DNA from: Escallonia rubra
Lineage: Eukaryota; Streptophyta; Magnoliopsida; Escalloniales; Escalloniaceae
Assembly (NCBI GenBank): GCA_033065855.1
Contig: JAVXUO010002454.1
Location: 62,001-126,000, forward strand
Length of the DNA stretch: 64,000 bases
Direction of reading: 5' to 3'
Position 1 is the stretch's first letter. Each line of letters opens with the position of its first letter. The position numbers and the translations under genes are program-made. Positions 1,630 to 50,056 of the stretch are shown here, piece after piece. The notes under the pieces were generated by a model. It did no database searches, was not told the DNA's origin, and worked only from the letters and a program-made list of their open reading frames with translations.

Positions 1630-4600
1630 ATGGGTGTAAAAAACCTGTGGGACATCCTCGAATCCTGCAAGAAGACCCTCCCTCTTCACCATCTTCAGTA
1701 AGTTCCCGTCTTTTTCCCTATTCTGGAAAACCCACTTGAAATATCATATATGGGTTCACACTCATGTACTCAAGCTCACACATAATTGGTTTTCTTTCTT
1801 GGGTGATAATAGGAACAAGAGGGTATGCATAGATCTTTCATGTTGGATAGTTCAACTTCAGAATGTTTACAAGTCACACTGCCCTACCAGAGACAAACTT
1901 TATCTCAAGGGTCTCTTTCACCGCCTCAGGGCCCTCATTGCTTTAAACTGTAGCGTCATCTTTGTTACAGGTGCCCCTCTTTCTCTTTCCCTTGTTTCCT
2001 TCAGTTATATTGCCAAATGCCCTCGTTTGATTGTTTGTAGTTTAAATTTTTCTAGCTGTTCGTTCTTGTAATTATCATGGTGTAGTAATGGAAGCTCATA
2101 AAATTTTAAAATTTTGCTGCAAAATGTTAATTTTTGGGGTAGTGGACTGTTGCATCTGAATTGAAATAGAATGGTGAAAGATTTTTGGCACTCCAGGCGA
2201 AATATGTTTTAGGAGTGGCTAAGATATTGTGGATGTTAGGTATCTTAACTGATCGCTATAATTTTCACTTTACGAATTCGAATGTGCTTCTAAGTTGAAT
2301 ATCTGAGAATAATTTGAAGCAAAGAAGTAAAACTAAAATGTAATTCGTATCTTTGTGAGATGATTATATGTTGTTAGCAGTAGTGGGAGATGTCGTGCAG
2401 CACACAAGGTTCCCCCCCTCTAATATAGTGTTTTCAGGACACTGTCGTGAAGATGTCAAAACCAAGATTCTAATGTAGGGTGAGCCTTTGAGGTACTTGA
2501 GGGACACCAACTATTCTAGAATGCGTTCTACACTTCCACTTACGTTAAGAGATAAACAAGATGCCTAACATTTTTGAACTAGATAAGAGCAAAAACTGAC
2601 TAATGTACGTTGTGACCAAATAACCAAATACAAGTGGGTTAACTTAAACTTGTGACTCTTGAGGAGGAAAAGCTTTGATCTGCTTTTAATATGAACAGCA
2701 CTTGCAATAAATTCTGACAATAACTTTGTTGCACTTGAAAGTAGGAAATGCAAATTTTTCGTTGGCGGGACATAGGTCGCTTCTTGTCTTCCTTAATATG
2801 ACGGGTGGAAAATTAGGCGCTTATTGCTTTTCTGATTTTCAGTAGCTGAGTAAGTACGTTATGTTCCTATCATCTGAATTCTTGGTCAGAACCCCACTAG
2901 GGAGTCCTCTTGAAACATCAATTATCAATACCTTCATGAAAATTATATTCTTTACTATGAAAATTGAAATGTGATCTATTATATTGAGATGGGAAATTTT
3001 TCTATAATTTGGGTATTCTGTTTCAAGTTGACAGATGGATCAATTCCTGCTATCAAGTTACCTACTTATAGACGACGCTTAGATGTGCACAGCGAGGTAG
3101 GGGTTCCTTTACCAATGACAATCTTCACGTTCATCTTTTCTGAATCACCTTTGGCTATGTTTATATGACGCCAAACATATACTTACACTAATTTACTTCG
3201 TTAAACGAGGCAGGTTGCTCAAGATGAAGCGTCATACAAGGTCTCATCACTTCGAAGAAATTTGGGATCTGAGTTTTCTTGTATGGTAAAGGAGGCCAAA
3301 GTCCTTGGCACAGCCCTCGGGATTCCTTGCTTAGATGGGTAATCAGAATTAAAGCAGTAACTCTACCGATCTGCATCCTTTAATAAATTATGAATATGAT
3401 TATACAAGTAAGGAATAGTACGAACATCATTAGTTGCAATTTCCTACAGCGAGATATGTATGCACCTCTTAATAAATCAAATGGTGTTCTTTAGCCTTTT
3501 TAAGATCTACATTGGGGAGACTGATACATCATCCTTCTTCCATCTGGTTCTTCATTGAGTTTGGTGAAATTGGGAAGTATGAAAGAGGCATCTTATAGGC
3601 TGATGAGCAGGCATCACGATGTGGTTATAAGGATCTGTCTCTCCATCGGAACATGTTTCTTTTTCTTCCACTGTGTGGAGGAAAAGACAGCACTGAGGGC
3701 CAAGGAAATTGTTTTAATTAGAAGTATGAAGGGATCGTAAGGTCCAGTGGCTTATATATGATGTTCGTAATTTTGGACATTCTTTTGCTTTTGCTTTTCA
3801 TAGTTAATTAGGTGTGTGGATCCAATGGCAAACCTTGGCCTTACCATACTGTACTAGTATGGTGATTTGCTTTCTTCATAATGATGTAAAGCACCAGTGA
3901 GAAGCAAAAGTTTCATTCTCATGTGCTTCAATTTGCAAAGCCTTATGCATAGAAACACACTTTCTGGAAGTATGAGTTGGAGAAGAAATATTGGCTATAT
4001 ATAAGTATTCATGTTGATGAAAGTTGTGCAGACTAACCCTTGGTATGGCTTTTTTCTCCTCAGAATGGAGGAAGCTGAAGCTCAGTGTGCACTACTAAAT
4101 CAAGAATCTTTATGTGTAAGTGTTACATCTGCAATTTCTTTGGGCTATTGCATATATCCCATGGTTGGGAACTAATGATTGACTCGCATGATGGCAAGTT
4201 GCAATAATAGTTGTTACTGTCAAAATCAATACGGGTTAATGTCTTTATTATCATCAGGATGGATGTTTCACATCGGATTCTGATATCTTCCTGTTTGGCG
4301 CAAAAACAGTTTACAGAGAGATATGCCTTGGTGAGTACCCATTATGCAGCCGGGGTTGGGGTGGGGGGGGGTTGATCCTCCTTTTATTTTAATGCCTTAT
4401 TCCTCATAAATTGTAATATTTGCTAACCGAGTAACCGGTGACTTTTTCTTTATGATGTAGGGGAAGGTGGGTTTGTCGTTTGTTATGAAATGGCTGACAT
4501 TGAGAGAAAACTTGGATTTGGAAGGAACTCTTTGGTAATTGCCTTATGTCTCATAGATTATCTAGTAATGTGCTTCTTCTTCTTCGCCTATTTTCCTTTC

Positions 4601-7600
4601 AATTCTGTGTCTCAGGGTGATGTGCTACCCCTTAGCAGATGCTACGCTGGAGGTGCACTCATGACTTCAGTGGTGTTTTCCACCTGTATGTCATAAATGG
4701 ACTAATTTTTTGAAATGGCTGATTTGCTCTGTGGTTCGGGTCTTCACCACTAAAAAGCAACCCAAATGATGACTATATACGAATGCAGTGCCACAACAGA
4801 GTGGATAGCACGAGAAATGACTTAAATGAGGACATTGGCTATTGTTGGAGTAGGGAAGTGTAATCCATCTATAAATCCCAATCATTACATATCCGTACCC
4901 TCTATTGTCGTATTATAGTGTTCCTACTCTAACAGCTATAAATTGGAGGTGGCACACTCCGGGGGGGGGGGGGGAAGAGATTGCAAAATTGAGTTGGTTG
5001 ATATTGTGAAGGAATAGTTGACTCCTAGAATTAGGAGAGACAATGTGATCGCAATTAGACGCGAGTGCAGTTAAAGTTTTCGTTTCTACTGATGCCAAAT
5101 TTTATGGTTTAAGGCTTTAGTGGGGCTGAATTGATTGAGGAAACTTTCTACACCAACTGTTCTTCAGTTTACTGCATTGTTTAAGTGCATTTTTAGTAAC
5201 AAAAAAGTATAATGCCCTGATGAATAAATTGGTGCTTGTTGAAGTCACTGCACCAGGACTGTGCATATCAGTAGTGTCCATCTGTTCTAATCATCGTACA
5301 ACTATTGCTCCTGGAGAAATATTTTGGTTGCTGACTGGCACTATCTTGTGTTAATTTGTTCTACAGTTCTTGTTTTTATTGGGGCTTGGATATGGGTTAC
5401 CTAGTGCTAACTTTAGTTTATCATTCTCAGATTACTCTGGCAATTCTTCTTGGGAGTGATTATTCGCAGGGAGTTCATGGGGTTGGTCCGGTAAATTTGA
5501 ATAGTATTGTATTACCTCCACCCCAACCCCTTTGTCCTGCTGATCTGCAATTGACTTATTTGAAGGATGCTTATGCTTTGACATTTTGCTCTCCCGGCTA
5601 CAGGAGTCGGCATGCCAGATTGTAAAATCAATGGGTGAATATGCTGTTCTTCAACGAATTGCATCTGAGGGTCTGTCATTTGCAAAGAAGTCAAAGGGTT
5701 CCAAGAAACAGGGTCCAGTTTCGAGATGCAACGACAAAGAGAACTACTCGGATATTAATGGTAATTAGATTGGTACTTTTGTTAGGAATTTTTTTTTCTT
5801 TATCACCATATTATGGTTCATTTGTTTTTTCATATTCAAAAAACATTCGGACTTACATGAATAGAGAAAGGGTGGGAGGGAGGGAGGGAGGGGTTGATCT
5901 CTTTGTATTGGTCCAAGAAATCTTCTTATTTTCTTCTTCTTTCTATGTCTCTCTTTTTTTTTTTGAACACTAGATGTGATATTACCAAAAGGTCTGGAAA
6001 GTGATTTATAGTTCCAGATCTGGTATGTTTCTTGTAACGTTGCTTGTAACGTTTCACTTCATGTTTCTTGTAACGTTGCTCCAGTACTGTGGCAAAAAAA
6101 TTTATTCGTAGAAAAGCATTTGGACATCCCCTTCCCCAACCTAAAATGGAATTTATTTGGTAGGAGGGAAACCTGACTCTCGAAGGGATGACCGGTTCCT
6201 GCAAGTGATTGATGCATATTTGAAACCAAAATGCCACTCAGCTGACTCCGATGCTGTGCATAGGTACGATTCCGCTCTTCAGTAGACATTTTGGGTACCC
6301 AATTGGTGCAGAAAAATAGGGTTGTAAACTTGCATTTTGACATTTTTTTTTGATACACATCACTCGGAAAGAAAATGAGAGCATTTAGCAATGCAGCAGA
6401 AAGCTTACGGTAATCTTGTATCATTATGCTTAAAACTTTCTAGGATTCTTGGTCTGTATCCGTTTCAACGTACCAAACTTCAGCAGATATGTGCTCAGTT
6501 GTTGGAGTGGCCTCCTGAGAAAACAGGTACTCTCTTCTTTTATGCACTAACTCAAACATACAAGCATCATACACTTGATTCTATTCATGAACACAAAAGA
6601 TATTCATGCATATATAATGTCTCTTCAATTTTCTGGTATGGGGGAAGTGGTGGGCTCTGGAGGCAAGTTCTTGATTGAAATTGGAACAAAATGTGGAAAT
6701 AGGGATGAATTTGTAACAAGTGTCCATAAAATGAGTAAAGCTCAAACATAGAAAATGTTCTTGCCTTGTACACTGGGCCAACCATTTCTTTGTTTTTTCT
6801 CTTTTTTTTCTAGCCTGATGAGAAATTGGCTTAGAGTTCCACTGTGATGCATTCTAGTCTTGTTCACATGGATGGATATGGATCAACATTACTAGAGTAA
6901 CTCCACGGGTGGAGTTCTTTCATGTGTTCTCAGGTCTTTCCTACTTATAAAATAACAATACGAATTGAAAGAGCATGTATATAATTTCATGTTTTCGCTA
7001 AATTTCACAGGGAGGGATATGGATTCTCAGTTACTAGAACCACTCCTAGGGTGGAATTCCTTCATTTGTTCTCAATTACTACCTGCTTGTACAATTTCAA
7101 CCATACAAATTGAAAAAGCATGTATGCGCTGAATTCCCTTTTGTTTTCTAATGCCTGGGCCCCCATATAAGCACATAAAAAGTTGCACATTTTCTGATGG
7201 CTAAGATTGGCCGAGTTTTTAGTGGTTAGATGAGGGAGTTTCACATTCACAAATGGTGCCCCCCTTATTCTTCATGCTCATTTCATCACAGGAAAAAAGA
7301 AAAAATTGGTAAACTCCACTTGTAGTCTAAATTCCACAGGACGCAAAATCTGGCTGGTTCTGACAGTTATCTTTTTCATGGTTTATCGTGCAGATGAATA
7401 TATTCTTCCAAAGATTGCTGAAAGAGACTTGAGGCGATTTGCCAACTTACGTTCAACTTCATCAGAGCTAGGAGTTCGGCTTCCATTGGATGAGGTACTA
7501 CTCTTTATACAGCTTGTCTTCCTATGGCTTTATGATTCTTGTTACTTGTTTTTGTTTAACACCCTTCCTGAAAGAGTCAGTTGTATCCCACTGCAAATGC

Positions 7601-10072
7601 GAGATTGTGTTTCCACTTTCTGAGCTACACTTTTAGGGCTGGTTTGGACATTCCAAGTTAGTTGCATGAATCTTATTTTGCTCCATTTGTTTAAAGTCCA
7701 ATGTTATCTTTTGGAATGAAGCCAGTATGTGTTCCGGTAGCTATTTGAGTTGAACCCCATTCTACAAACTAGTAAAGAAAATGGGGAGCTGCAAAACAAA
7801 AGATGCTAGAGACTACATGATTGGGAATCGTATTACACATTGTACTGCATGCTAGGGAAGTTCCTCAGGGAGCAAGCTCAAGCTTTGCTTATGTTTGGAG
7901 CAGTATGCAGCAGTATAATCAAGTGCGAGCTAAAGTGGATCCATCATTTGAATATACAAATTAAACACAGGCACATATTTTATGCTTTTCCAGAACAGTG
8001 TGCTACTATATATGACCGAGAAACTGTATGTCTCTAATTCTTATGAATCTGTGGCCTCTGGGTTTATTTCAAATTGAATGAGTCTGGTTCACAGAATGAT
8101 TATGCATGCCCATCTTATTAGGCTAGAAGAGTCTTAAGCTTGGGATGCAGCTAAGCTTGATTTGCTATTTATGTTTTAGAAGGGTAACAACTTGAAGATG
8201 TATGAAAGGCTTTTATGCAGATGAGTTCCTCCTATTGGTTCTTAAGCTAACTACACCAAGATTTGAATTGTTGATAATGGTATGCCAAATTATTTTACAC
8301 TGCAGATGCCAATTACGTGTCCAATATCTGGAATTATTACGCAAAGAAAGATTCAAGGAAAAGAATGCTTTGAGGTTTCCTGGGAAGAAATTGATGGACT
8401 TCAAACGTCTATAGTACCAGCTGATCTCGTGGAAAGGTATTTCTACAGTTATACTGGTTGTTTTGGTAATTTTACGCCTTTTCGTTCGGAGTTTAATTGT
8501 TAACAGTAAGTGATTATTGCTGTCGTTTTGTCATAACCACAAAGATCTTTTAATTTCGTTTGACATTTTAAATTAAGAAAAAAATATAAGATTCGCCATA
8601 TTACTGGCTGATAATCCTGAGTTTTTTCCCTAAATAATACATATTTAATACTTAATTACCAAAATACACCATTTTCAAACTTATTTACCCGCATACCACA
8701 TTTTGGAAAATCGTGGTTTGAAACCACGTTTTCAAGGTAGAAATCGCTGTTTGAAACAGCGATTTCTACTTGATTTTTACCTTAAAGTAGAAATCGTGGT
8801 TTGAAACCACGTTTTCAAGGTAGAAATCGCTGTTTGAAACAGCGATTTCTACCTTGAAAACGTGGTTTCAAACCACGATTTCCCAAAATGTGGTATGCGG
8901 GTAAATAAGTTTGAAAATGGTGTATTTTGGTAATTAAGTATTAAATATGTATTATTTAGGGAAAAAACTCGATAATCCTTGCAGGACACTTTCTCGTGCA
9001 AATTACCAGCACACACGGTAGGGTATTCTGTTACTGAAACTGAATTCGGTGTAAGTTAGTGTATGACATCTAGGGTTGAGCGACAAATGCAGATCTATCT
9101 AGGATCACAAGGCCATCTGGTCTTTTCGGTTACTTATTGCTTTCCGCGTATCCATTACCAGAATTATGTTGTTTCGCGCACCCTTTGGACATGCAAGTTT
9201 ATGACGATTTAGCTTGCTCTCAGTACTATCAGTCGGTATTCAGCTACTCAAACCTTCAGAAGCGCTTGCATCACTTGATGCAGAGGATCTGAAATCAGTG
9301 CCGCACCGGCACGTGCTAATCTCTTGGTTGGTATACTCAGCACATGGATTACCGGTGTAGAAGCATTTTTTTCCATGCCGCTCTAATGTTTGGACAAGTC
9401 GCAAACAGAGCAACGTATTTGAAGAGCCAACCCCCCTTCCCCTCTCTCTCAAATACTAGATGTGGTTGTACATGAAAAAACAGTTGATCTGGAATTTCTA
9501 TTGCTGGTTAGTCGTATTGACCATATGGATTCTAAGTGAAAAATCTTCCATTTCTGCATATTCCCAGAGCTTGTCCCGAAAAGATTATGGAATTCGAGGA
9601 GAGAAGAGCGCAAGGGAAGAAACCAACCGTGTGTAGACCAAGACAGAAGAAGGTTAAAAATGGAGCACCCATGAGTGAAATTGATAAAAGGTTACAAGAG
9701 CTGCTTCTTGACATTGAACGTGACAGCAGTAGCACTCGTGCTGCTGCTTCATCCAGAGGTACAATATCCGAGCAGAGTAATGATCTAACCAGCATCCAAG
9801 ACCTACTGCTTGATACAGAGTCAACCAGCAAAGCTGACGGAAATGCAGCTGCAGGTTGCTACTCAACAAGTTCATCTGTTGCAAAAACAGAGTTCGTTGA
9901 TCTCTTGAGCCCTTCCCCTCCCATGCGTGGCCATAATGTTTCAAAGTGTCAGGAACCTAACGTCCAACGTGTTGCTGTGATTGATTTGAGTGAATCAGAA
10001 ACTGATACTTCACCGGAACATTCAAAGAAGGCGAAAGAGTTGAGATTGTTTTTAGCCAGCATAAAGGGATGA
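1630..10072 (+). CDS. SEND1: SEND1 / GEN-like Holliday-junction and flap endonuclease (XPG/RAD2 class IV)
   Basis: Fourteen exons: 1630-1697, 1813-1970, 3035-3096, 3214-3338, 4064-4115, 4258-4330, 4461-4534, 5431-5490, 5604-5760, 6164-6263, 6444-6526, 7394-7494, 8306-8436, 9568-10072. They join in phase to 582 aa. The N-terminus MGVKNLWDILESCKK is that of SEND1 rather than plant GEN1. The expected metal-binding acids are present: D30, D76, E141 and E143 (EAEAQC), D162 and D164 (DSDIFLFGA), D214 (GSDY, start of the H3TH region). Residues about 372-425 resemble the chromodomain-like module that follows the nuclease core in GEN1. The last exon encodes a low-complexity acidic tail ending near KKAKELRLF. 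Known role of the family: nuclear resolution of Holliday junctions and telomere stability. Predicted from sequence; no lesion seen. It ends tail to tail with MSH3. Confidence 0.93.
6874..7145. repeat. Tandem duplication (period about 141 bp) in SEND1 intron 11
   Basis: Two diverged direct copies, starting at 6874 and 7015 (both begin ggatatgga). Shared landmarks in order are a tactagA block, a ggtggaRtTcYttcat block, a gttctca block and an aaattgaaaRagcatgtat block. The copies differ at many positions and by small indels, so the duplication is not recent. It lies wholly inside the intron and does not touch exon sequence. Confidence 0.7.
8619..8970. mobile_element. Mutator-type foldback MITE in SEND1 intron 13
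   Basis: A 352-bp near-perfect palindrome. It starts gagttttttccctaaataa and ends with the complement. The arms run about 150 bp each with only a few mismatches. It is bounded by a perfect 9-bp direct repeat, gataatcct, at 8610-8618 and 8971-8979, the target-site length typical of Mutator-like elements. The arms contain five alternating small palindromes: cgtggtttgaaaccacg at 8712-8728 and 8795-8811, a variant at 8861-8877, and a 25-bp palindrome around cgctgtttgaaacagcg at 8741-8765 and 8824-8848. It has no coding capacity. The intact arms and perfect duplication argue for a fairly young insertion. It could form a long hairpin in the SEND1 pre-mRNA. Confidence 0.88.
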
Positions 10073-11149
10073 AATTTCCTGAAATAGAATGTTAAGGAGT
10101 ATGTACAATTAAGGATCATTTGTATTTACCTTGTATATCAATGTAATAACAGGCTTGCCAAGCTAAGGACTTTTGTTATATACTGTTCCTCGAATTTTGT
10201 GGGCTCAGTACTTTATTCTAAAACTCGGGTCAAGCCGAACTCGTCAAGTAGATACATGCTTAAATGCAGCCCCGAGGAGGTGACACTCAAGCTTGTGCTT
10301 AGATTCAACACAAAGGGTTAAACAAACTGCACTCTTTATATCATTGATCAAATGAAGATATACAATCAAGATCACTGTTGCCATTGGCACCCGTCTTTTT
10401 AAGTACTTACAGGGGTGGCAGGGTGGTGGTGTTTGTGGTGGGGGCGTGTAATTGTATAGCTGCCCTAGAATAGTACAACTGCAAATTGGAAGCAAAAATC
10501 AATTGCCGCCTCAGTACCTCGGTTCAAATTCAGATGACAATCCCTAGCGGTGCTACTAAGCTATTAACCTACAGTCCTGCACAGAGCAAACTCCTTAGTT
10601 ACCTGTCAACTGTAGGACAGTTTTCTTCCTCGCAAGCCATCACTCCAGCTGCATGATAGAAAAAGAATTAGGAAAAATGGGAGGGAGGGGGTGGGGCAAC
10701 ATATTATAACAATGATAAAAGCTAATCATCAAATATATGGAGGGCGGGGTGGGAATGGTATAGAACCACTTTTTCATACCAATATAATCTTTTGAACGTT
10801 AGAAGCTACTCTCACTATGATAATCCATTCCCTTCAGGATCTGCTAGTTATCTGCAAAGGAGGAGAGTGCGCATATGATTTAAAAGATGTTGAGAGTTAC
10901 GATGGCTAAAAACAAACTAAAATAACATGCATGTGCCTGCTGGATACCCTCATTGACAGTCCCGTGTCAACAAAAGTTCAATGACCTCAATGCCATAACT
11001 GTGCTAGTATAGAAGGAGATTGCCCAAGGAAATGCCCTGTGCAAATATATGTGGTTTGGGGAAGGAGGTGACCCGTAGAGAAGGAAAAAAACATGCGAAG
11101 GGTTCAAAGTTCTGAAGCTGTTGCTCATCAAAATATGTAGCTTTACCTA
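10073..11149. other. Convergent intergenic region between SEND1 and MSH3
   Basis: Holds the 3' UTRs of two tail-to-tail genes. A likely SEND1 polyadenylation region lies around 10135-10190 (T-rich, with aatgtaataa). On the other strand the MSH3 3' UTR would run left from 11150. Purine-rich runs occur near 10430-10445 and 10680-10695. No ORF with a recognisable product. Confidence 0.5.
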
Positions 11150-14100
11150 TTACTCAGCTCCTGCAGTCCTTCTAGCATGCTTCAAAATCTGGATCCTTTC
11201 TGCAAGGTCATCATCTCCTAGAAGTGCTATGTTTTGTTTCGAGAAAACTTCCCTGACAGTGTTGATAAGTTTCTCCAACCCCTCAACTCCTTCTGCCGAG
11301 GTGCAGTCAAGAGTTCTTAAGACGTCCTCTTGCACCATTTCTCCTCTATTTTCTGGCACTGTTCCTTTTAAAGACTTCTGCCTTGACCTGTTTTTCTCCC
11401 TGTTGCTTACTGCTGCTTCTAACTTCGTAGCCATGATGATGGCTCGGTTAATACACGAAGATGGCAGCTGAAATGGTGCATTCGAAACAATAAGAGAATT
11501 TCAAATAAAAGGTAAGGAGAGAAGAAGCACAATTTTTTTAAAGGATAATACATATCTTAAAGGATTCCAGTTCTGACCTAGCCTCATATAACAGTCCTAA
11601 GAGTTCTAATTTCCGAATGACTTCTTAGGTTGGTTTCCAGCTGCTTGCTCGCAAGTAATTCTCATGAGTTGGTTAATCCAGCAAGAAAAGAGAAGAAAGG
11701 CAACTAACCTGTGCAAGCTGAGCAACTTTAAACCCAAAACTCCTCTCTGAAACACCAGGCACAAGCTTATAAAGGTAAGTGACATCTTCATGATTCATGC
11801 TTTCAGCTTTCTGCTCAGAATTTGAGCCCCTGTTCTGTATATCTTTCTTTGATGTCAAATAGGATACATGATATGCTCCCACAGAACCTGATAACTCATT
11901 TTTAATATCCATTACTTTAGGGTAATGGGTGACAAAGAGGACCAAGCATCTTTTTTGCTTTAGAAGATACTGCAAGGTAGCATAAGCAATCGCTACACCG
12001 TCGTGTGTACTCGTGCCTCTCCCAAGCTCATCAATGATAACCAGCGAGCGGGCTGAGCTAGTGTGGACTATGTGAGATGTTTCACTCAGTTCTTCTAAGA
12101 AAGTGCTCCTTCCATGCTGTATACTGTCAGAAGCTCCCATTCTAGTGTGGATGCCATCTAGGACATACAGTTTAGCAGACGAAGCTGGTACAAAGGAACC
12201 AACCTAGAGGGATCAGAGGGCACGTATTGATGAATTCACAGCCATGAGAGAGTCTCTAATCGAATACAAGTAATTATGGGAACCATCCGAGTTTAACATG
12301 ATAATATCAAGTTCTCAACACCGAACACTGGTTGGTTGACTGGAACCTTTCATTTCAAAAACATTACAGAGACAACATGCTATGGGTGCTTGAAAGAATA
12401 AAAGATGCAATTAGGTAAAGACACCCAACCAGATGTCAGAAAGACCAATATAATCAAGTTGTCTCCATATATTCTTCACCTTAAGTAGCACTTTTAAGTA
12501 GAAAAAGTTATCTACCTGAAGGTAAGTACTAAGTTACAAGGTTGAAATAATAAAAAAATCCTTTTCGACTCTTTCCCCCTCACAAATGTGGTGTTGTTGA
12601 TGTAATTGACTAGAGCAAACCACATACACATTGTAGTTATTTTTCATTCAATTCAACGTCTATTTGGCAAGAATATGAAATGATAAATGGGGATGCAAGG
12701 TAGGAGGGATGAAAAGAGTTCCCTGGCGAAACGGAACATGTCTTTGCCTCATTGTGTTCGGTTTTTAGAAGGATAGAGGTTCTTTACAAACTGAGAGGCA
12801 AAGCAGCATAAAGGGGACCTTCCTTTAGCTCCTCCTTTCGTGCCCAGTTAGTTCATAAAGATCAATATCATGTTTAATTTTTCCTTTATGGGTGCGGGCA
12901 GGTTTTGTTTTGTGTGTGTGGAAATGGGGGGAAGATGGGATTAGAGAGAAGGTTTTGTTGGGAGCTGAGAGAACTCATTCCGTCTTCCTTCCTCTACCTT
13001 CTCAGATCATAATAACAAGAGAAACTTCATCTCTCTCTCTCCTCCCTTGCTGTCAAACCTTTTCACTTCTCCCTCCTTTGTACAATAACAAAGTGCAAAT
13101 ATTCAAGACATTTTGTAAACATAAGGACAAATTTCAAGTCGTGAATGGGTTTGGAAGAATACACTAGGTGCTCTAGTGGCTGTGGACATTAAACTACCAC
13201 ATCAATGTGAGGACTGATAATCTTCTACCTGAGCCATGATAGCGATGAGAGCAACTTGGCGTATATAACAACTCTTTCCACCCATGTTTGGTCCTGTAAT
13301 GATCTGACAGTACTCTTCATCTGCATGCAAATTTGTATCATTTGGGACAAAATTATCTTGCAATATAGTCTCCATAACCTGGACCAAATTATGTATTAAC
13401 AAACTAAAGTTTAATCTCCATATCGATTAAACTGTATCAGCAGCACTATAGCAAACATAGGATTATGTCATTTATGTGGATAGAAAGATTATACAAAGTG
13501 AGGCGCTGACATGAGATCTTGCATATCAAATCATACTTCAGTTTTTAACTGAACGTGGTTAGCTTTACTTCATGGGATGAGTTCAGCGTAAAATGGAGTA
13601 CAGAAAAGTAATATAACTTCCATCAGATTTATTTTCCTTTAAACTCTAGAGACCTGACGCTGTAAGATTAGGGCATGCCAGCCTGCCAAGTGCCTGACCA
13701 TAATTCTCGTCCAAGGCCCTGATTTAGGGACTTGGACAGTTCTGCCCTAAGATTAGACGTAATATTTGTGTCAAATTTTGGGCCCAATAAGCAACTCTAG
13801 GGACCTGATGCTGTAAAATTAGGGCTAGACAGGTGCCAAACAAAAATTATCCTCCACAACCCTAATTACATGACTTGGATGGTTTTGCCATGGAGAGCAG
13901 AGCAGGTTACAACTGCTCTCTTTCCAGAGTTTAGCCTTCACAAGAAAATTTCTGTGAGATATAACCTTACTGTTTAAGAGGGAAAGCGCAATATGAGGGT
14001 GTCCCGTTTTGTACCTCAGAACCTAAACCCAGTGTATGAACTCAATTTAACTTCACCAAAAGAGTTGGTCAAAATAGACGAGAAAAATAATAAGACTTAT

Positions 14101-17100
14101 TATCTACCAGGTCCCAAACATGCTCTCCCTGCTTCTTTAAGTCAAGGAAGTCATACAGCAACATCCTAGACAATGCTCTGAAACTGAATTACAAACCTGC
14201 CTAGCCTAGGAGAAGCCTAAAGGCACTATAAGTGCCTGAATGCTTGCTTGTGTGCGATTAAGACAGATGGCCGAAGTGTTTGCGTGTGCATGTAAGAGAG
14301 ACGAACAGAATTCGTACATATATTATGTACCTTCAAACTCCAGCTTCTCAGGGTTACCAAAATCAACAATTAGGGAATGTTATGGGCTACTTCCCCCACT
14401 AGAGTAGTCAAATCTTGTGTCATCTTAAGTTCTAAGTATCTAACCAATGAAGTACAAAATCTTGCTTATCCTACTGATTAGAATCTCCTTGGATGTTTGG
14501 AAAATAAATCATGTAGGAAGGCATCAGAGTTTGGCATAGTCATACTGGAGAAAACAATAATTACATGACATTTATTACCCTTAAAATGATTTACCCTTAA
14601 AAAAGTGGCAATTCTTATAATAAAAGGGCAGGACTTGACTTCTTTTCGTACAACTTGGACACTCTTCTTTTCGTACAACTTGGACACTCGATATAGCATT
14701 TATAACCATATACTTGAATAACCTATCTGAACGGTGATGGTATTGACGTAAACAAGCTGTTAAAGAACATACCGGGTGCCGACCAGAACTGATCTGTATC
14801 TGAACAGGTTCATTATTATTTACAAAAACTGGACGGACATAATTCTGCAACAGATAAGATGAGAGAATTATGAACAAATACTGCAAAATGAAACATAACT
14901 TCATAAGATCCGCCAAGATTGAACCTTGTTTCTGGAAAGAATGGCAAGTGAATGTAGACAATCCAAAGCAGCTAGTGCTTGAACAGCAGCCTGGAACTCG
15001 GGATAGTATTTACCAAATGCCTTCAGAAAACTATCCCAAGCAGCTCGGCAGGCAAGATTGAGCTCCTCATTCGCAACTGATAACTGATCTAATGCAGTCA
15101 ATACTTCTGGCGGATGATATCGTATTGTTTTCTTAGTACTATTTACCTTCACCCAGTTTGAAGGAACCTTTACATCTAATGGCAACTGAAGTAAGAAAAA
15201 AACCAAATTAGGTCCATAAAAAAAGAGAAACGGGAAATCATTTTCGGAAACTACCTACTAAAAGAAATTACAGTGCCGCAATAACCAGAAAAACACATAC
15301 AACAGAAATTTAAATTTGCAAGGGTAGAGTCTTAGAACAGAGATTGTGAAAAGTACTCAGTGAGATGCCAAAAAGAAAGAAAGTGATTTGTTTCCCAAGT
15401 TGCAACAATGGCATGTCTGGGCTACTGCAATGGCAAACTGAGGTATTAAAGGTTAATTCACCTCATACATTGTTACCACTCCAAAGAACACCCAAAAAAA
15501 AAAAAAATTCCACAACCAACTAGAGGTGAAACCAGAGTTTAGAAGTATAAAAGGTTAGATTCCAGCTGAGACAAATTGGGCTATCGCCACAGCTTTATCA
15601 AAGAGCAAGACCAGTTCTTCTACTGGCTATGTAAAATTTCTAAACCTGGCAACTCAAACATCACCCATTCCAGAAATGACTGAGTTCCCTTCCAGAAATG
15701 CTTGGAAAGAGGAAATGGAAATGAAGCACTTCGTATAAGCAGCAGAAAATATGAAAAGCATTCTTTAGCTAAAGTCAAGGGTTGGGCTACGTCCCTGTAG
15801 TCTAAGGTAGAGTTAAGTTAAAGCACTCACCACACTAAAGACATAACAGTGAACCATAAACCAACAAAGTGACAATCCTTACAGTTCTACACATTAAGAG
15901 ACTTTGCAAGCCGGACTAGAGGTGGGTTATGAAGCTGATCTATGGCATTTAGGAGTTCTATATAAAAAAGCAAACGAGAAGAATTTCTTCTCTGACAAAC
16001 TCAACTACCTCTATCAAGTGTGTAATTCCAGACACACTCGTGAATTCCAAATTACACTTTCCAAGCTGCTTTCGATACATCCCAATCAGCAAAGCTAATT
16101 CTTCCATTGCCGACTGAAGTGTTGTCTTTGCTTTAGTGACCTGCACATCACAAATTATAAGGGGGAAATGGATATAAGAATGAAAGTATACAGCACAATC
16201 AAGACAGTGATTTAAAAGATGAAACTGTTAGGGAAACCTCTGGAAACTGTCCATCAGTAGTGTTGAATAAGTTGGGCAGGTCCCTTTTATCAGCAGCATC
16301 TTTGTTTAGGGTAGACAAGAGTTTTGCAGCACTACGGATCATGCTGGAAGATGAAGCAATTGATATCAACTTTCTCAGCAACATAGAGCGCGCAGTATTT
16401 CTTCCCGCATTTGTTTCTTTGTCCTCTTCTTGAATGTGAAGTTGCTGAAGTTTTTTCCCAGCAACTAAGATAGCTTGGATGACTGCAACGAACTGTACCA
16501 TAGGATTATTGAAATAAGACATAGAAAACACTTGACTTGAGATGGCAGATGCCGTATCATCTATGCAGATTTATGGGAAGCGCTTCAGCTATGGGATCTA
16601 AATCCACGTATCTACTCTATCCACTGTGTAATCGGTCAACAATACTCAACAACTCTTGGCCATTCAAAAGTAGGAGGCCAACTTGACACAGGCCAAATCA
16701 AATGAAAATATTTTGAGGCCTATCACACCTTTGAGTCTTAAACACTATAGATTCAACACTTCAGCAAAAAAAAACATTAGATTTTTTGACACAAAATGAG
16801 ACAGCATCACCAGCCAGGTAATGCATAAACTTTGAACCCCTCCAACCACCTTCCTCCTCTTTACTTGCCAGTATCTTATGCCCCCACACATACATGCAGA
16901 CACAGAAGACACTCGGTGCAGTGAGAGGCTTTTCAGCGGTTGAGGGAACATGTAAAATCACATTTGGAAACAAGATCCATATTGTGTAACTTTGCATATA
17001 CTCAAATGTCAGCGTGTATATTGATGATAGATATGTGGACATATGGATACAAGAACACGTGAGGATGCTTGCAGAAATCCAATTGTTTACCTCAGCTGCT

Positions 17101-20100
17101 GTTGCTGTTCGATGAAAGATTCTTGTTATTCCACGCTGAATATCAGGAGACCGTCCTAAATAAGTCAAAACGGAAGAAAGCAGATGATACACTTCAGGTT
17201 GTATAATGGTGATGCCAAAGTCTCCCGCATCAGAGCCAAAACTTTGAGAAGCTCTGCTAGAACCCATAGCTTCTGCAATCTCAGAAACAGCATCAAGCCG
17301 AGCATCAATCATGGTTCTGTCACATAATGGGTGAGTCACCTGAACCAAGCAGACACCAAATCATAATGCTACTGAGAGGAACGAGTCACAAAAGCAACTA
17401 CTCAGAAAGAATTAACCGCTTACCCAATGCCTCAGAAGTCTTGAACCAAATACAGTAAGCGTATTATTCATGCACTGCAGCAACGAGCCAGACTCGGACC
17501 CATCAGAGTTATTCTTCAGAACCTAAAAGCAATTAGCCCATTTTACCCATCAACGAGAGGGAAGACAGTTCGTAACAAATAAGTCGAACCTAACCCAATT
17601 TGATGCCTTCTAACTTCAACAATTTTCAAACAAGTCTTCAGGTACTAACTTCAATAATAAAACTTTCTGATCATGGAGTGTTAATTAGGAACTAGTAATA
17701 CCACAATATATTGACTTCCTCAAATTTATCTACTGGAAGTCCTTCACACGTTTGTAATGTATAAAATTCCACGTTTGCTCTTGCCATTTTTGCACTGTAG
17801 CAGAAGTTCTAAGCCCAAATGAATGAGTGGATTTGCAACCTTGCTAGTGGCACGGTATAAAAACAGTCTAAGGTCATTTATATTCATTCTATTCCCGTTC
17901 ACCATTGCTTTGAAGGTGCTTCTATTGACAGGATGGAGAGAACAGACTTCAGTTGCCTATACAGATAACTGATGACACAATGACACATGCTAGAGCGGTT
18001 TTTGATAATGTCACTCCTTTTCACTATTTCAATGAGGCTTATAATAATGGCACATACCTCTAATTGTTGAATTGCATTAGCTGATAGGGTCACCTCCATG
18101 CTGCAAGAGAATGGCCGAAAGGAAGCTCCGGAGCAGAGAATTCTCTCAAAACCGAATTGTTTTAGATGACGAATAATTAACGCAAGAGCTTGAACAGGCA
18201 AATCAGTCATGGCCATAATTCCCTTCAAAACCGAAAGTCGGATAGCAAAAGTTTAAAAAAATGGATAAACTGATGAATTCGAGATGAAGAGGTCATAAAC
18301 TCAATAAACTGACAGAAATGTGGTAAAACAAGAAGCTCCACTTGCTTTGACTTGAAAACTTATTCTTCTACGATTAGTACGCCAAATACATGGATCTCTA
18401 CGTGCACATATACGAAAGCGCACGTAAAAAGAGTGTGTATAGAAATAATACACACACAGAGAATGAAGGGGCTTCTATACATTCAGGCACAGTTTTTGTT
18501 GGGGTGTGTGTTAGAGTGCGGGCATACGAATACATGTCCTACGCAGCATAATTTATTATGCAACTTAATGCAGTCTATATTGGCTAAACAACGTAACTAT
18601 ATTTGCAGCCATTGCTTATATACGTGTCAACTAACCGCACCCAATAGACTGATAGTCGGACTAGCAACTTAGGAGGCAGATGAAATATTTCTTTAATTGA
18701 ATCAGGCAGAATGGGATTTCCGCATAAATTGATCAAAAATACCGTTAGTGAGATGTGAGAATAAGGCACATTGAACTTCTAGAGGGCTATTTTGAAAAGA
18801 CACGCGAAGTAGCTGCCACCACGCATAACTTATTACACCCATAATGCAACACAATCGCCATGTGTATGGTGAGTTCATGAAAAACTCTGCATAAACAGGG
18901 AAAAGACTCATTGAGAGCAATACTAATCCAGTGAAGCACCCAAATAAGCATCTCCCACCAATACACTGAGGAAGGCCATGCTAGCATACATGCATTGCCA
19001 CCATGTTATTAAACACATAGCATTGTGATGGAACTATCGAGAGAATCTGCCCAAAAGCACTAACACAAAAGCATATCAGCTACTGCAAGGTCTACACCAC
19101 AAGTTAGTTGCTAACAAGCCAGCCACCAGTACACTATGAGTCGCTGCACTAAGTAGCTGCTACAAGAAACCTCTTCACTGAAGGCAATAGCCAAACTCCC
19201 TCATGACAGTGCTCTTCTGAGCCATGCTATTGCGCGCATAGCAAGTACCAGGGGCTCGACCTTATGTTCAGGGCCTGAACTCACCCACAAAGCATTCTCC
19301 AGAAACACCTGCGTGCCCTTTGCATGCAGGCTACAAACTTTCTACAATGGCTGAGGGTTTCGAACCTACAGATCAGTCTAAAAATTTATACGCACTGGCA
19401 AATAGTCGATTAACGGTCCTCCCTTAAGTCTCGCTCCCTCCCTCCCTCGCAACTTCTTCCCTCTTCTTCGAGGTTCAATTGAAACCTGTATCGCCCCGTT
19501 CTGTGACCCCTCGGCAGTACCCTACAAATTAGAATCCTCCATCTACAAAAACATGAACTGCATGCGAAGCGAACTGCGTTCAGGGTAGGAATGTATCAAG
19601 GTTAAGACGTTCCTGCAAAAAAGAAAAGCAAAAAGAAAATATTGCACCTCAACTGTCAAGCGGCTATTTCCCTGTTCTTTTCCTTCCACTTCTTGCTCTT
19701 GATCATCATTAATTAAGTGAATGTCACTTGGGCTCCAAAATGAAGACATTACTTCAGCAAGTGCACCACCATCATTGAAGCAACCTCTTGAAGCACGCTC
19801 CACACGGGCATTTGAGGCAGGTCCAGCATAGGCTAATAGCAGCTACAAATAGCATATCATATTACATCAGCTTAAAGAACTTAAAAATGTTAGATGTGAT
19901 CAGTTCACCAATCACACTAATGACAACGTTTTGATGATTGTATCTAACAAAAACCCGAACCAATCCATAGATTACTGATATAAGTAACAAACTGCTCCTC
20001 AAACATACTAAGAAAGGCAAATCAGCGGACTGGAAATGTACATAAACAATTCAACCTCTAAAGACTGGATGACAGACATCACTTGTTATGCACACCAAAA

Positions 20101-21361
20101 CAAAAGAATGTAACAACTACTTTTTAATCTGCACAAGCCCCCTCAAGAGCTTTATGGTTTCGTGAAAACTTGCAGTATGGTATTGACTAGTAACCTCCCT
20201 TTCTTGTTGGCTGAAGGAGAGTCAATTTTATCATACGTAGTTCCATTAACAGAACTAATGAATTGAAAGTTAACACGAAAGTGATAATTCACCTTGACGG
20301 CTTACAAGTTAACTATTAATGGAACTTTTACTGCTTTCACTTATTCTAACTTCTTAACACCAATGAAATTTATGCAAGAAGAAAGCCACCTTCTCGGTAG
20401 GTCTAGAGAGGGGCTCCCCAAGAAGCAACTCAGCAGGAGACAAGCTCAATATCATACCCTCAAGCCCAGCCCTTATAAAGTTATCATCAAACTCGCCATA
20501 AACAACTTCCCCGGTCGAAATCTCCACCGCGACAAACCCAATTTTCACATCAAATCCACTTTCACTCCCACTATTTACATTTCCACCATCAATTTCCTTC
20601 TCAACAACACAAATCAGATAATTACTACTCGCCCCGCACCCCTCCTCCCCAATCCCCACATCCTCCGCCGCCTCCAGCGTCGCCTTGGTGTACAATGCCG
20701 ACAACCCGCGGCCAAATGGCCCCATTTTATTGGACCCGTGGGCCTTAATTGCCGCCGTCTCGGTCTGCTTAACCACGCCCACCTTATAGCCAGCACTAAC
20801 CAGCCTCCTAACATGCACATTCAACCTAAAAGTGGGCACACTAGCTGTCAGAAAATTATGATCCATATGAGCATAAATCCCCAAAACCCTAGCGGCGTTT
20901 TCCGCATCTTGGCCGAAAAATCTATACCTATAACCTACTTCCACCATCAAAAGAACATCCGGGTAATTTTCTTTCAGCTCAACCACCTGTTGCTCTAGGG
21001 GAGTAAATTTGGAATCTTGAGTGGTGGTTCTCGAAGGAGAAGGTTCTAGAAGGTGATCAGATGGTTCTAGAAGCTTGTTGAGGAATCTCTGGTGGAGGGT
21101 GGGGTCGGGATTAGGGTTTTGGGTGGGTTCAGTGGAATTTGGTGAGGAGGGAAGCGATAGTTTGGGGATTTTGGAAGGTGGGTTCTTTGGGGAGGTGAGT
21201 TGGGTGGCTAGGAGGCGTTTGGATGGGGAGAAGGTGACGGTGGCCGAGATTTTAGGGGGTGGGGTTGGTGGTGGGTTAGGCTGGGGAGGTGGTGGGGATG
21301 AAAGGGACTTGGATTTGGGGGCGAAGAAGCGGGAAATGACCTGTTGCTTCTGCTTTTTCAT
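11150..21361 (-). CDS. MSH3: MSH3, MutS homologue 3 mismatch-repair ATPase
   Basis: Twelve exons, read right to left: 21361-20390, 19842-19648, 18222-18058, 17522-17424, 17339-17091, 16492-16238, 16140-16009, 15185-14925, 14844-14773, 13378-13229, 12203-11709, 11467-11150. Every exon is a whole number of codons, giving 1,120 aa. MSH3 forms MutS-beta with MSH2 and recognises insertion/deletion loops in the nucleus. Seen: PCNA-interaction box QQVISRFF at residues 6-13; MutS domain I around 115-225 ([20 protein letters not shown]); the lever/core domains; Walker A GPNMGGKS at 829-836; Walker [11 protein letters not shown] with D908-E909; HTH-dimer segment in the last two exons. The N-terminus is Pro/Ser-rich. 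The start is the only ATG preceding the PIP box. No damage was seen; the gene looks functional. Confidence 0.95.
13644..13889. repeat. Diverged direct duplication in MSH3 intron 9
   Basis: Two related blocks, 13644-13746 and 13795-13889, share the order ctctagRgacctgaYgctgt, then attagggc, then aattMtc, then gacttggaYRgttYtgcc. A spacer of about 48 bp separates them. They differ by substitutions and indels, so the duplication is old. No coding sequence is involved. Confidence 0.6.
14639..14688. repeat. 25-bp tandem duplication in MSH3 intron 9
   Basis: Two perfect copies of a 25-bp unit beginning cttcttttcgtacaacttgg lie head to tail. The identity suggests a recent duplication. It lies 84 bp from exon 9 (14773-14844). 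Confidence 0.8.
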
Positions 21362-23109
21362 GGCGATGGTGTGGTGGTGGCAATGCCGCTATGGCGGTTA
21401 TGGGTTGGCGGCAGTGGCTTATAAAGGGATGTTCGGTTTGGCGCGCTTCGTCTTCTTCCCCACTTTGCCTTTGATTACACCAACACTGCAATGCCTCAGT
21501 TTTAGTGTTACTGTTTCTTATCAAACCTGGAATGATCTTTTGTCTGTATGAAGTTTACTGTATAATATATATACCAACTTCTTCATAGTAGTATCATGAC
21601 ATTTCAATGGTATGTCTTCAAAAGTTGGCATTGATTTAGGGATAATGGCTATAATTTGACATTTGCCATATGCCACCCTATTGATCCTTGCCGTGTATGC
21701 TTTAGTTGAAGTTTGTGAGGTAAAATAACAAATCATAGTAATAAAATATAAGAAAAAATTTGAAAGCATTGAAATTAGAGTTATTGTTTTAAACGGTGAT
21801 AGTATATAATTGTCACATACGAATGACTGTAAGATTCGACTCGAATACCAGATGCATATACATTAGAAACGGAGACTTTACACAAGGAAAAGATAGATGG
21901 AAAAAAATCAAAATAAACTATTACGTGTAAGATATAGAGAAAGGCCAAAATAAGCAAATAGGCAGATAAAATGGATATTTATTAATTTTCTTCAGAACAC
22001 TAGTTATTATTGGTTTGAAGGTGAATATAAGTTATTGTATTATCATGTTGGCTCTTATATTTGAGTTGTGATTTAACAAAATTTAGTTATGTGATTACTT
22101 TCTTCTGAATTAACAACTCCAAGTTTGTCAAATGTCTTTTATTCTTTATTTGCATGAAAGAATATCTAATACAAGATAAATCAATAATTACATTGGGACA
22201 TAAAATGAGTACATTGGGCTTCAGACAAAACAGGCCATGTGCCTCCAAACTTGAAAGAGGTAAGCTAGCTGGGCTGTAGACAAATTAGGCTTGTCAACCA
22301 TTGAAAATAGAGTCGCAAGAGCCATGGATAATGCTTGCTCTCTCATGATCAATCCTTGTGGACTTTGCACTTAAGAAAATACTCATTGCAAACTCATACA
22401 GACAGATGTAGATTCTTTCCAGTTACGTGCACGCATACACACAGACACAATCACACATCTACAAACTCATTTGCACCAAAAAAATCTACAAACTCATGGT
22501 CACTCGTGCGCGCACATAGATGCAAAATAACATACGCACACATGCAAACATACAGATGTAGATTCACACAGATGCACGATTACACACACAAACACATGGA
22601 CGTACATTTCACACAGTCTCGGTCGCTCTAAGTATTTCTAATCGTTTTTGAGGCGGTGGCAATGGCAGCTAGGGCTAGGCTAGGACACCGGTGTTACCAT
22701 CATAGCCGCAGTGGTGGTGGAGATGGAGGGAGAGGCAATGGTTAGGGTTGAGATCCATTGAACCGAGAGAAGGATGGTGGCGGTTGGTCAAACGGATGGC
22801 ATAGGTAGTAACTTACTTAAATGGGGTATTTTCAAAAAATCAACATGTCTAATAAGGAATAAATTTCAAAAGAAACAAATCTAATGAAGCAGAGGAAGAA
22901 AAAAGACCGATATGTTATCACTCTCGTGGCATCGTCCAAATCTTTTTTTTTTAAGTGAATTCAAAAGAGAAAAACCAGTAGACATGACTCAAGTCATAAT
23001 CCTTATCGTGAGATGTAAAGTCATAAACTAAAGAAGTCATCTACTGTGTTCAATATTCAAATTTGGTCGTATAAATTAGAAAAAAAATTGACTGCTATCT
23101 CGATTAGAG
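21362..23109. other. Intergenic region: MSH3 upstream and low-complexity DNA
   Basis: The first 150-200 bp left of 21540 (reading away from MSH3) should contain the MSH3 promoter and 5' UTR on the minus strand. Around 22380-22620 the + strand is rich in scattered ACAC and cagatg/gtagattc motifs, a degenerate low-complexity stretch. Around 22650-22800 there is a short G-rich island. No recognisable protein-coding sequence. Confidence 0.45.
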
Positions 23110-24153: not shown

Positions 24154-24501
24154 GAACTGGATTCTCTAAACTTGAACGCACCCACGTTTGAACTTTAAGG
24201 ATGTCAAGTAGTTAATTACTTGCATGTGAATTTGTATCTTAGTCGGTTGGAGTTATATGGTAATTAAAACATCAAGGACAAAATTAGAGGGAAAAAAAGG
24301 TTAAAAGAATAGTAAAGCGAAAGAGAATAGCTACCATATTTTATCCGTATGGACGACCATATTGCATATTGAAGCCTAGAGTTAGGTTCCCAATATAGAT
24401 GGCTTTTCATTGGTTTGACAACCCAAAAAACTCCAAGGAAAGCTCCACCCCATGCCTCTACCACCACCCCATATACCCAACAGCATTCATATGAATGGGA
24501 A

Positions 24502-25635
24502 ATGAACAACTTCTCATCATCACACTTCCCTCTCCAAAGCCAAAAAGGAAAAGAAGAAGAAGAAGAGAAGGGTCAACAGCAGGCAGAAGAAAGAGCCAGG
24601 TGTGAGTGGGACTTCAGCCTCTCCGCAGTTGTCTCTTCCTCCCGCGCCGCAGCCGTCTCCGACGCGCTGGGCGCAACCGAACTCGACGCTTCCGGTGACC
24701 TCCTGGCCACCGGAGGGATTGCCAGGAAGATTAGGGTTTACTGTTTGAGTTCCTTGTTACAGAACCAGCATGACCAGGGTGGCGCAGCCTTGTTGGACCA
24801 CGCCACTGCATGTGACTACTACATGTGCACACCAGCTAAGCTTAGCAGCCTCCGGTGGAAACCCGGGTCTGGAAGTCGGGTTATCGGGTCGAGTGACTAC
24901 GATGGGGTTGTCGTGGAGTACGACCTTGAAAGGCGGGTACCCGTTTTCGAGCGGGACGAGCACGGTGGGAGGCGGGTATGGAGCATGGACTACTCGCATT
25001 GGGACCCGGTGGTGGGCGCGTCCGGGTCGGACGACGGCACCATGCAGATGTGGGACCCGCGCTGCGAGGGTGGTGTCCGCATCGCCACGGTCCGACCCAG
25101 CGGGTCAAGTAGCCCCGTCTGCTGCGTGGAGTTCAATCCGTTTGGCGGCGGGCTAATTGCCGTTGGATGCGCTGACAGACGGGCCTACGGCTATGATGTG
25201 AGGAAAATGGGCGCCCCGGTGATGGTACTGGAGGGGCATCAGAAAACGGTGGCCTATGCGAGGTTCTTGGATCATCGAACGATGGTGACGTCGGGTACGG
25301 ATGGGTGCTTGAAGATGTGGGATACAGAGGATCAGCGCTTAATTCGGACCTACAAGGGGCACGTTAATAGGAAGAGATTTGTCGGGTTATCGGTTTGGAG
25401 GAGCGGTGGGCTATTGGGTTGTGGGTCGGAGGACAACCAAGTGTTTGTGTATGACAAGAGGTGGGCTGAGCCCATATGGGTGAACCGGTTCGAGCAGGTG
25501 GGTCGGGCAGGGGGCGAACATGGGTTCGTGAGTAGCGTGAGCTGGAGGCAAGTGGGTGAAGATGGGTGCACACTTGTGGCTGGAGGATCAGATGGGATGT
25601 TGCAGGTTTTTGTGGGCAAGAGAAGGCCATTCTGA
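24502..25635 (+). CDS. RUP2: RUP1/RUP2-type WD40 protein, repressor of UV-B photomorphogenesis
   Basis: Intronless, 377 aa. The start at 24502 (MNNFSSSHFP) is the first ATG of the frame; the upstream in-frame codons lack ATG. After a short Glu/Gln-rich segment comes a CEWDFSLSAVVSSSRAA motif and then a seven-bladed beta-propeller of WD repeats. Clear blades include GVVVEYDLERR, GTMQMWDPRC, GCLKMWDTEDQ and NQVFVYDKRW. The MWDPR sequence fits the WDxR box of DDB1-binding WD40 proteins. RUP proteins bind the UVR8 photoreceptor and restore its inactive dimer, limiting UV-B signalling. RUP1 and RUP2 are similar, so the paralogue is uncertain. The coding sequence is notably GC-rich against its AT-rich surroundings. 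COP1/SPA-type WD40 proteins are the nearest alternative but are longer, with extra N-terminal domains. Confidence 0.87.
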   Translation: MNNFSSSHFPLQSQKGKEEEEEKGQQQAEERARCEWDFSLSAVVSSSRAAAVSDALGATELDASGDLLATGGIARKIRVYCLSSLLQNQHDQGGAALLDHATACDYYMCTPAKLSSLRWKPGSGSRVIGSSDYDGVVVEYDLERRVPVFERDEHGGRRVWSMDYSHWDPVVGASGSDDGTMQMWDPRCEGGVRIATVRPSGSSSPVCCVEFNPFGGGLIAVGCADRRAYGYDVRKMGAPVMVLEGHQKTVAYARFLDHRTMVTSGTDGCLKMWDTEDQRLIRTYKGHVNRKRFVGLSVWRSGGLLGCGSEDNQVFVYDKRWAEPIWVNRFEQVGRAGGEHGFVSSVSWRQVGEDGCTLVAGGSDGMLQVFVGKRRPF

Positions 25636-37650: not shown

Positions 37651-37712
37651 GCTCACCATCGACGGCAATCAATCCGATAAATTTACAAACCTAACCCTTC
37701 ATTCAATCCACC

Positions 37713-48413: not shown

Positions 48414-50056
48414 ATGGGGTGTAAGCCACTAGAGAAGCCAAAGATGAAGCACAAGAAAGGTTTATGGTCACCAGATGAGGATCAAAAGCTCAGAGATTAT
48501 ATCCTGAAGCATGGCCATGGCTGCTGGAGCTCTATCCCCATCAGTGCTGGTAAGCTAATGTAGACAGTGTTTGGACTTTAAGCATTCATGTAGCATTATG
48601 CTCGATGTGTATCACAAGGTTATCTCTTACTGGCTGAAGCATATAGCGCAGTAGTGTCACCTTACTTCAATTTTCCTACAACCTTTGGTCCACAATCACC
48701 TTTTGATGTTCGCTTGCTGTCGTTAAGTTACAAGCTGAGAAGATTATTTCATAGGGATATGGACAATAGCTCTGAAAAGACAGATAGCCAGCTGTCCTTT
48801 GTTCATCTAACATCACCTTTCTAAAGTAATTTCACCTGGAGGTACTAGGTTGCATACATCTTTGAAGGCTAGTTTGTCAATCTTAGACTGAAAAAACAAT
48901 TGATCCACTATCGCAAAAACTGAGGCATTTGCATTTTTGCCAATTTTACTTGAATTTATCTTGGCATTTTTGTGATTTAGCTCAAGTCAACAGCAAGAGG
49001 ATTTTTGTGCATTGTAGGTGTTTCAAGTGAAAGATATTGGTAGTAAATTAGTAACCCTTTTATGATGACAAAAATACCCACATAGTTGACTTTGTGGGAT
49101 TGACTTTCTGAGATTCTTGTTCATATTATTACTTGCAGGTTTGCAAAGGAATGGCAAGAGTTGCAGATTAAGGTGGATCAATTATCTGAGGCCAGGGTTG
49201 AAGCGAGGGATGTTTACCATACAAGAGGAGGAAACGATTCTCACCCTTCATCGCATGTTAGGCAACAAGTAAGCAGCATTTAATCTCAGTTTTACATTTT
49301 TTTAGTTTCCGTTTTGAATTAAAGTTTTGCTTGAGAAAAAGGGTAGGAAAAGTGTTGCGATGAAAAAACTCTATTTAGTCTTTGTATATTGTAAAAGCCG
49401 CCAAGTGAAGGCATATTTTCTCTGAAATGGTCAGGTGGTCTCAAATGGCACAACATTTGCCTGGAAGGACTGACAACGAGATAAAGAACTTTTGGCACTC
49501 TTACCTGAAGAAAAGAACAGCAAAATTTGAAAATTTTGAAGCTGAGACTCTAACTGAATATACAAGTTCAAACATGGGAAATACAAGATCTTCTTCTTCT
49601 ACTTCAATCTCAGCTACACAAAGCACAAGCTTTACTTCATTTGAACACGTGGAAGGATCGTCACCAGATGCAGATCAGAACGTTCCACAAACTCTTGACT
49701 GTACAAAAGAAGCTGGCCACAGTAATCTGCCAAAGGTTTTATTTTCCGAGTGGCTTTCGCTAGATAAATTTCAAGGCCAGGACCACTTAACCAGCGCAAG
49801 TGAGCAAGCAGTTTCCAAGGACAGTTTCGGTCACTATTCAAACTCTGAAGACACTTTCCCTCATGATTTAGTCCTAAATGGAGGATTGTTTGGTAGTAAC
49901 ACTCACCAAGGTCTGAGCAATGATTCAGTGTTAAACACATTACATACACAAATGAAGTTTGAGGATCAGATATTCGAAGGTGGTTTTGGTAACTTTCTAT
50001 GTGGGGATTATTTGTGTGGCGATTTCAACATGGACAGTGAAGTACTGTATATATGA
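48414..50056 (+). CDS. LAF1: R2R3-MYB transcription factor, LAF1/MYB18-like
   Basis: Three exons, 48414-48549, 49139-49268 and 49435-50056, join to 295 aa with the standard R2R3 splice phases. R2 covers about residues 13-63 ([20 protein letters not shown], then [11 protein letters not shown]). R3 covers about 66-116 ([20 protein letters not shown], then [20 protein letters not shown]). R3 starts with Phe in place of the first Trp, as is normal in plants. [20 protein letters not shown] and the C-terminal [11 protein letters not shown] motif match what I remember of LAF1/MYB18. LAF1 promotes phytochrome A far-red responses and is degraded by COP1. Assignment to the clade rests on memory; MYB19 and MYB45 are close relatives. 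The tail is Ser/Thr-rich, then acidic. Confidence 0.82.

Follow-up and report, generated by a model that had tools for sequence, protein, structure and literature searches.

An intron of the SEND1 gene of Escallonia rubra contains a stretch of 352 bp that is close to being its own reverse complement, and the question it raises is twofold: what kind of element this is, and how so ordered an interior comes about. The answer favoured here, with good confidence, is a young, non-coding Mutator-type (MULE) foldback MITE whose core, to judge from the variation among its relatives, seems to be rewritten again and again by template switching.

A modular palindrome in intron 13 of SEND1

The window analysed is a 64,000-nucleotide stretch of contig JAVXUO010002454.1, and the near-perfect palindrome is at its positions 8619-8970. 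Inverted-repeat comparison gives two arms of 151 nt, the left at 8619-8769 (+ strand) and the right at 8820-8970 (- strand), that are 99% complementary with 50 nt in between. Folded as DNA, 8610-8979 reaches -180.9 kcal/mol as against a mean of -32.9 for shuffled sequence (z -31.1; 0 of 100 shuffles its equal), in agreement with a previous description, made from the letters alone, of a 352-bp element that is nearly all palindrome. The perfect 9-bp flanking duplication of that description is likewise real: GATAATCCT is present at 8610-8618 and again at 8971-8979, bracketing the element, with the 9-bp match scored as such and with the flanks overlapping by 9 bases in a joined-flank query. The ends of the window copy, and of the family, are GAGTTTTTTCCC.

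Internally two kinds of palindrome alternate, A of 17 bp and B of 33 bp, the latter perfect, in the order A, B, 18-nt spacer, A, B, A. The sequence-only reading had recognised the alternation and the 17-bp length, whereas the modules it measured as 25 bp are of 33 bp, and a 62-bp perfect direct repeat, consisting of two A+B units (8708-8769 and 8791-8852), was absent from it. The left A (8712-8728, centre 8720, consensus position 94-110) and left B (8737-8769, centre 8753) are followed by the spacer (8770-8787, + strand), placed from the sequence and the aligned copies, and then by the middle A (8795-8811, centre 8803), the right B (8820-8852, centre 8836) and the right A (8861-8877, centre 8869), the A modules being placed from the sequence and the consensus. 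The last A-B-A modules constitute a perfect palindrome of 93 bp (8790-8882, centre 8836, arms of 46 nt with 1 nt between) that has the right-hand B centrally within it and is also present in the family consensus. Both B centres are G in the window copy; among the 26 copies aligned, 17 have C at the left one and 6 at the right one. The spacer is off centre and is the sole indicator of a copy's orientation.

The host gene, SEND1 (1630-10072, + strand), is modelled with 14 coding exons, GT-AG borders in 13 of 13 introns and an intact frame of 582 amino acids. Its product has Chromo_SEND1 (PF25386), XPG_N and XPG_I domains (PF00752, PF00867); among solved structures its best relative is GEN1 (5t9j). 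Intron 13 (8437-9567, + strand) has its GT at 8437 and its AG before 9568, with the frame intact over the junction, and the element is placed 182 bp past the donor and about 600 bp ahead of the acceptor; its previously claimed position in this intron is thus borne out by the exon model. Nothing at the level of sequence suggests that the gene has been broken by it. The element would be removed by splicing along with the intron, most likely without effect, and, since frame and splice sites are intact, it is most likely neutral in SEND1. A connection had also been drawn to the activity of SEND1 on branched DNA. The insertion is one copy in a family of well over 100 end-pairs, and that an enzyme of branched DNA is the host looks like chance and is best taken as such.

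As regards the neighbourhood, the gene tail-to-tail with SEND1 (window 10900-21400, - strand) encodes a MutS homologue, with MutS domain V at 11673-12203 and domains I and II at 20354-21388, which from its N-terminus and length we take to be probably MSH3; two repair genes dealing with hairpin or loop DNA adjoin here. Elsewhere in the window are a WD40 protein (24373-25635, + strand), a single-exon frame of 685 amino acids with DUF2828 and DUF7788 (37695-39752, + strand), a PPR protein with an E motif (40621-42315, - strand) and a Myb-like protein (49409-50056, + strand).

A different role for the insertion would be as a miRNA or siRNA hairpin gene, established or in the making, that affects SEND1 or other genes. 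Its 352-nt RNA is predicted to fold as a near-perfect hairpin (-260 kcal/mol for the whole element; z -38.3; 0 of 100 shuffles as good), and, according to the accessible text of PMC12595863, Mutator MITEs rank among the main contributors of MITE-derived miRNAs in dicots. However, a hairpin so long and near-perfect suits siRNA more than a single miRNA, and 0 of 36 Rfam matches listed (E up to 1) reach the gathering score of their own family, for which reason the miRNA identities were set aside. The hairpin-gene role is regarded as doubtful.

A dispersed family of Mutator type

Inverted repeats can arise by template switching (PMC8604942, text accessible in part), and a palindrome in a single intron could be the local product of a replication accident with no transposon involved. 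At this locus that is hardly credible, being refuted by dispersed copies that have ends in common and 8-10-bp duplications. In the host genome (566 Mb in 3222 contigs) the terminal 39-mer has 265 matches with at most 3 mismatches (135 forward, 130 reverse), compared with 0 for a reversed-pattern control, so that the lack of other genomic copies, earlier named as what would argue against a Mutator-type element, is not what is found. When the element itself was used for a DNA search and the best 40 of 1114 candidates scored, all 40 were near-full-length at 94-100% identity. Among the fetched loci are 59 distinct two-ended elements, 27 of them exactly 352 bp and most others 267-385 bp, with one of 655 bp. 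(The sample consists of the best matches to the window copy together with the listed end matches and leans to young copies; L012/L039 and L014/L048 are same-insertion pairs, each counted twice among the 59.)

Perfect duplications of 8-10 bp flank 37 of the 59 elements, or 36 of 57 once the two same-insertion pairs count singly, whereas mispaired flanks yield 17 of 19,713; some of the 22 elements without a perfect duplication have one with a single mismatch. Duplications outside 9-11 bp had been named as an argument against a Mutator-type element, and the lengths do not overturn that reading, although 10 bp is the commonest (22, with 11 of 9 bp) and 4 measure 8 bp. The duplications are A/T-leaning; a target preference was considered and dropped, the difference in GC between the flanking 100 bp (37.1%) and sequence further out (39.3%) being too small to build on.

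Target-site duplications of about 9 bp (8-11) and long terminal inverted repeats common to dispersed copies, here the 151-nt arms, are features of MULEs. The family is also short (under about 800 bp), non-coding and present in many near-identical copies with TIRs and duplications, as is characteristic of MITEs, and its composite inverted repeats with a variable number of modules are those of foldback elements. Assignment to the Mutator superfamily, which the sequence-only reading had anticipated in proposing a non-coding foldback element or MITE of this type, follows from the copies, the lengths of their duplications and the long inverted repeats.

Substitutions and centre bases were counted in 26 of the 27 copies of 352 bp, L062 (352 bp, 41 differences) being left out. 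These 26 colinear copies have a median of 5.5 differences from the consensus, centres excluded, and their relationships are nearly star-like. The window copy has 2 differences, one of them a B centre, and is therefore judged to be young. In the same 26 copies the outer 12 bases of each end are the most variable (52 of 624 cells, as opposed to 69 of 4524 for the core), which may reflect the element edge having shifted by one base. Separately, CHH sites have the most C-to-T changes (95 of 2028) and CG sites few (6 of 624), the opposite of the usual decay associated with CG methylation; the scarcity at CG is partly because CG sites are in the less-changing core.

We infer that movement was by cut-and-paste, in which case a MULE transposase from elsewhere in the genome would have acted in trans. 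The MULE transposase domain PF10551 is abundant, with at least 150 matches over the cut-off (150 of 150 scored, from 3309 first-look candidates). When its positions were compared by eye with about 100 of the 265 listed ends, none was so placed as to share an element, and open frames viewed by eye at the single-ended loci L044, L045, L049 and L050 included no transposase that could be recognised; L050 adjoins a long open frame resembling an NBS-LRR gene and L044 is near frames resembling retrotransposon gag, both also read by eye. The coding parent with the same ends that had been suggested was, accordingly, not found among the ends and loci compared. A search of the host genome for an empty site, which the earlier reading would look for in relatives, and for a paralogous one had the same outcome, the joined flanks matching only their own locus.

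Of known systems, the closest in kind is FaSt (Falling Stones) of Prunus, a non-autonomous Mutator MITE of 349 bp with 9-bp duplications, copies of which also occupy introns and other gene parts (PMC12071656, PMC13359793, in their accessible sections). The inverted repeats of FaSt measure 82 bp and enclose a unique interior (accessible text of PMC12071656), unlike the Escallonia element, which is a palindrome over nearly its full length with modules that are themselves palindromic. The 22-nt FaSt-R primer, the only part of FaSt compared, has 9 of 22 mismatches to the element, no better than shuffled primers. Closest in architecture is Tm1 of root-knot nematodes, of Mutator/Foldback type. According to the available parts of PMC3169594, it has composite inverted repeats with modules of varying number, mostly 9-bp (8-10) duplications, and members of two classes, one MITE-like and the other with host sequence acquired; its modules are, however, tandem repeats of about 14 bp, its end motifs are asymmetric and a coding member is known, whereas the Escallonia modules are palindromic and a coding member was not found. 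MuTAnT of Medicago truncatula is Mutator-like, short and, with 218 copies, similarly numerous, but it targets TA microsatellites and has a known coding element (PMC4486113, accessible in part); among the 37 perfect duplications of the present family no TA-microsatellite target was seen. In the literature searched, from which subscription journals were mostly absent, no palindromic modules are described for elements of FaSt or Tm1 type, and a search with the end sequence and both palindromes met no earlier description, its one match being to unrelated zebrafish work.

Variation within the core

The most distinctive variation is at the centres of the 33-bp palindromes. In the 26 copies the centre base is other than the majority one in 15 of 52 cases, always with G and C exchanged, as compared with 6 of 2912 for G-C interchange at 112 other G/C sites; such a swap at a B centre is equivalent to turning the palindrome round. 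Genome-wide exact matches have C at the left B centre in 34 instances and G in 21. In the 18 elements scored for both centres the left/right combinations are CG 7, CC 6, GG 3 and GC 2. Mapped on a tree made from the other columns, the 9 minority copies at one B centre call for 8 changes and the 6 at the other for 6. These recurrence counts are to be read with the tree being weak, in that 2 of its 23 inner branches have good support, and with 5 for 5 being reached at two other sites as well. The centres of the 17-bp A modules are invariant (0 of 78); their use as a control for stem length was dropped since copying in either orientation leaves A centres unchanged.

Other variation involves whole arms and modules. 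Two members of a divergent subfamily, L046 and L054, have 16 departures from the consensus in common, of which 10 make up 5 mirror-image pairs with one member per arm, a pairing equalled in 1 of 100,000 random draws; in these two elements one A-module site is altered in all three A modules. Hybrid modules, half A and half B, account for 11 of 27 in the six elements with TAATTAATA near an end, and for 7 of 241 in the remaining 53.

Three insertions are each present in two homologous contigs with cores that differ. In L014/L048 the flanks agree at 99% and 97%, the totals are 365 vs 385 bp and the right centres are different; L053/L075 are of 655 vs 601 bp, with 0 substitutions over 133 flank bases; and L012/L039 are equal in length and centres and have 8 core substitutions. 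For same-insertion pairs together, substitutions number 31 of 789 in cores compared with 27 of 2518 in flanks (P 1e-6), though without L014/L048, where an indel may inflate the mismatches, P is 0.06.

Might the variants of centre and module simply be inherited, from several source elements or via recombination between copies, with any single copy remaining unchanged? The near star-like form of the family could hide two or more masters, and a divergent subfamily is in fact present. This is nevertheless unlikely in that all four left/right centre combinations are found, copies with derived sites in common differ in state (L005/L008, L007/L017) and, in L014/L048, the two homologous copies of one insertion have different centres and core lengths.

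A serious rival is that the core differences are errors of assembly or consensus at hairpins, given that strong hairpins pose difficulties for sequencing and that, within a 33- or 93-bp palindrome, short words lose its orientation. The 17-bp palindromes, which are too short to confuse such methods, are the ones without change, and a tight clustering of substitutions marks the left arm of L039, whose right outer arm is identical to that of L012. On the other hand, with contigs reaching about 2 Mb the assembly looks to be one of long reads, and random error would not easily produce either the mirror-image differences common to the independent insertions L046 and L054 or modules changed in length. 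On balance error is considered improbable. (The cluster itself, seen when L039 614-965 is set beside L012 1501-1852, comprises 11 substitutions in left arm plus core with none in the 88 outer bases on the right, and is either a mutation cluster or a sequencing fault.)

An exceptional core is that of L053 (5958-6612 of contig C207), which includes a complete antisense 5.8S rRNA gene (Rfam RF00002, 139.6 bits) together with pieces of both its neighbours. The chimera junction occurs twice in the genome, in L053 and in L075 (contig C1494), and with their flanks being those of one insertion no movement is claimed for the 5.8S chimera. In that one insertion of the family carries host sequence, there is what we take to be a likeness to Pack-MULEs; the difference is that host sequence is in a single insertion only (on two homologous contigs) and none was seen in the other copies examined. 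Pack-MULEs are mentioned in the accessible text of PMC3169594.

A proposed role of template switching in the upkeep of symmetry

Taken as a set of sequence patterns, the variation suggests that the core is rewritten by template switching inside the palindrome. The nested inverted and direct repeats would allow jumps between them, by a replication fork or in the course of repair, with copying in the one orientation or the other, and such switching (or gene conversion) would repeatedly overwrite the repeats of the core with each other. It would flip the centre bases of the 33-bp palindromes, alter both arms in mirror image, swap module halves and add or remove 33-bp units. Both self-inversion of one palindrome and copying between the 62-bp direct repeats fit the data.

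A bolder proposal, put forward tentatively and as somewhat less than probable, is that the core has been self-rewriting over the history of the family, repeated template switching at replication having taken it from a non-palindromic unit, the half-A half-B hybrid of the divergent subfamily, to pure nested palindromes, with the arms kept mirrored, the centres flipped visibly within one genome and the growing perfection tracking the lineage that was amplified. Were it true, the family would serve as a natural reporter, in many copies, of how palindromes invert in a plant nucleus.

The mechanism is already known; what may be new is a natural case in many copies in a plant nucleus. With yeast inverted repeats, template switching results in homogenisation of arms and recurrent inversion of the spacer, long arms being preferred (PMC8604942), and in plastids recurrent inversions have been linked to hairpins (PMC3123225), plastids, yeast and bacteria being where such palindrome events have mostly been described (both sources as far as their text is accessible). 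As an intron insertion the element is ordinary, and its value rests in the core of its family. There, near-identical copies let palindrome inversion, arm homogenisation and the gain or loss of modules be counted in a plant nuclear genome, and the symmetry of a foldback element can be maintained, or even made, after the element's birth.
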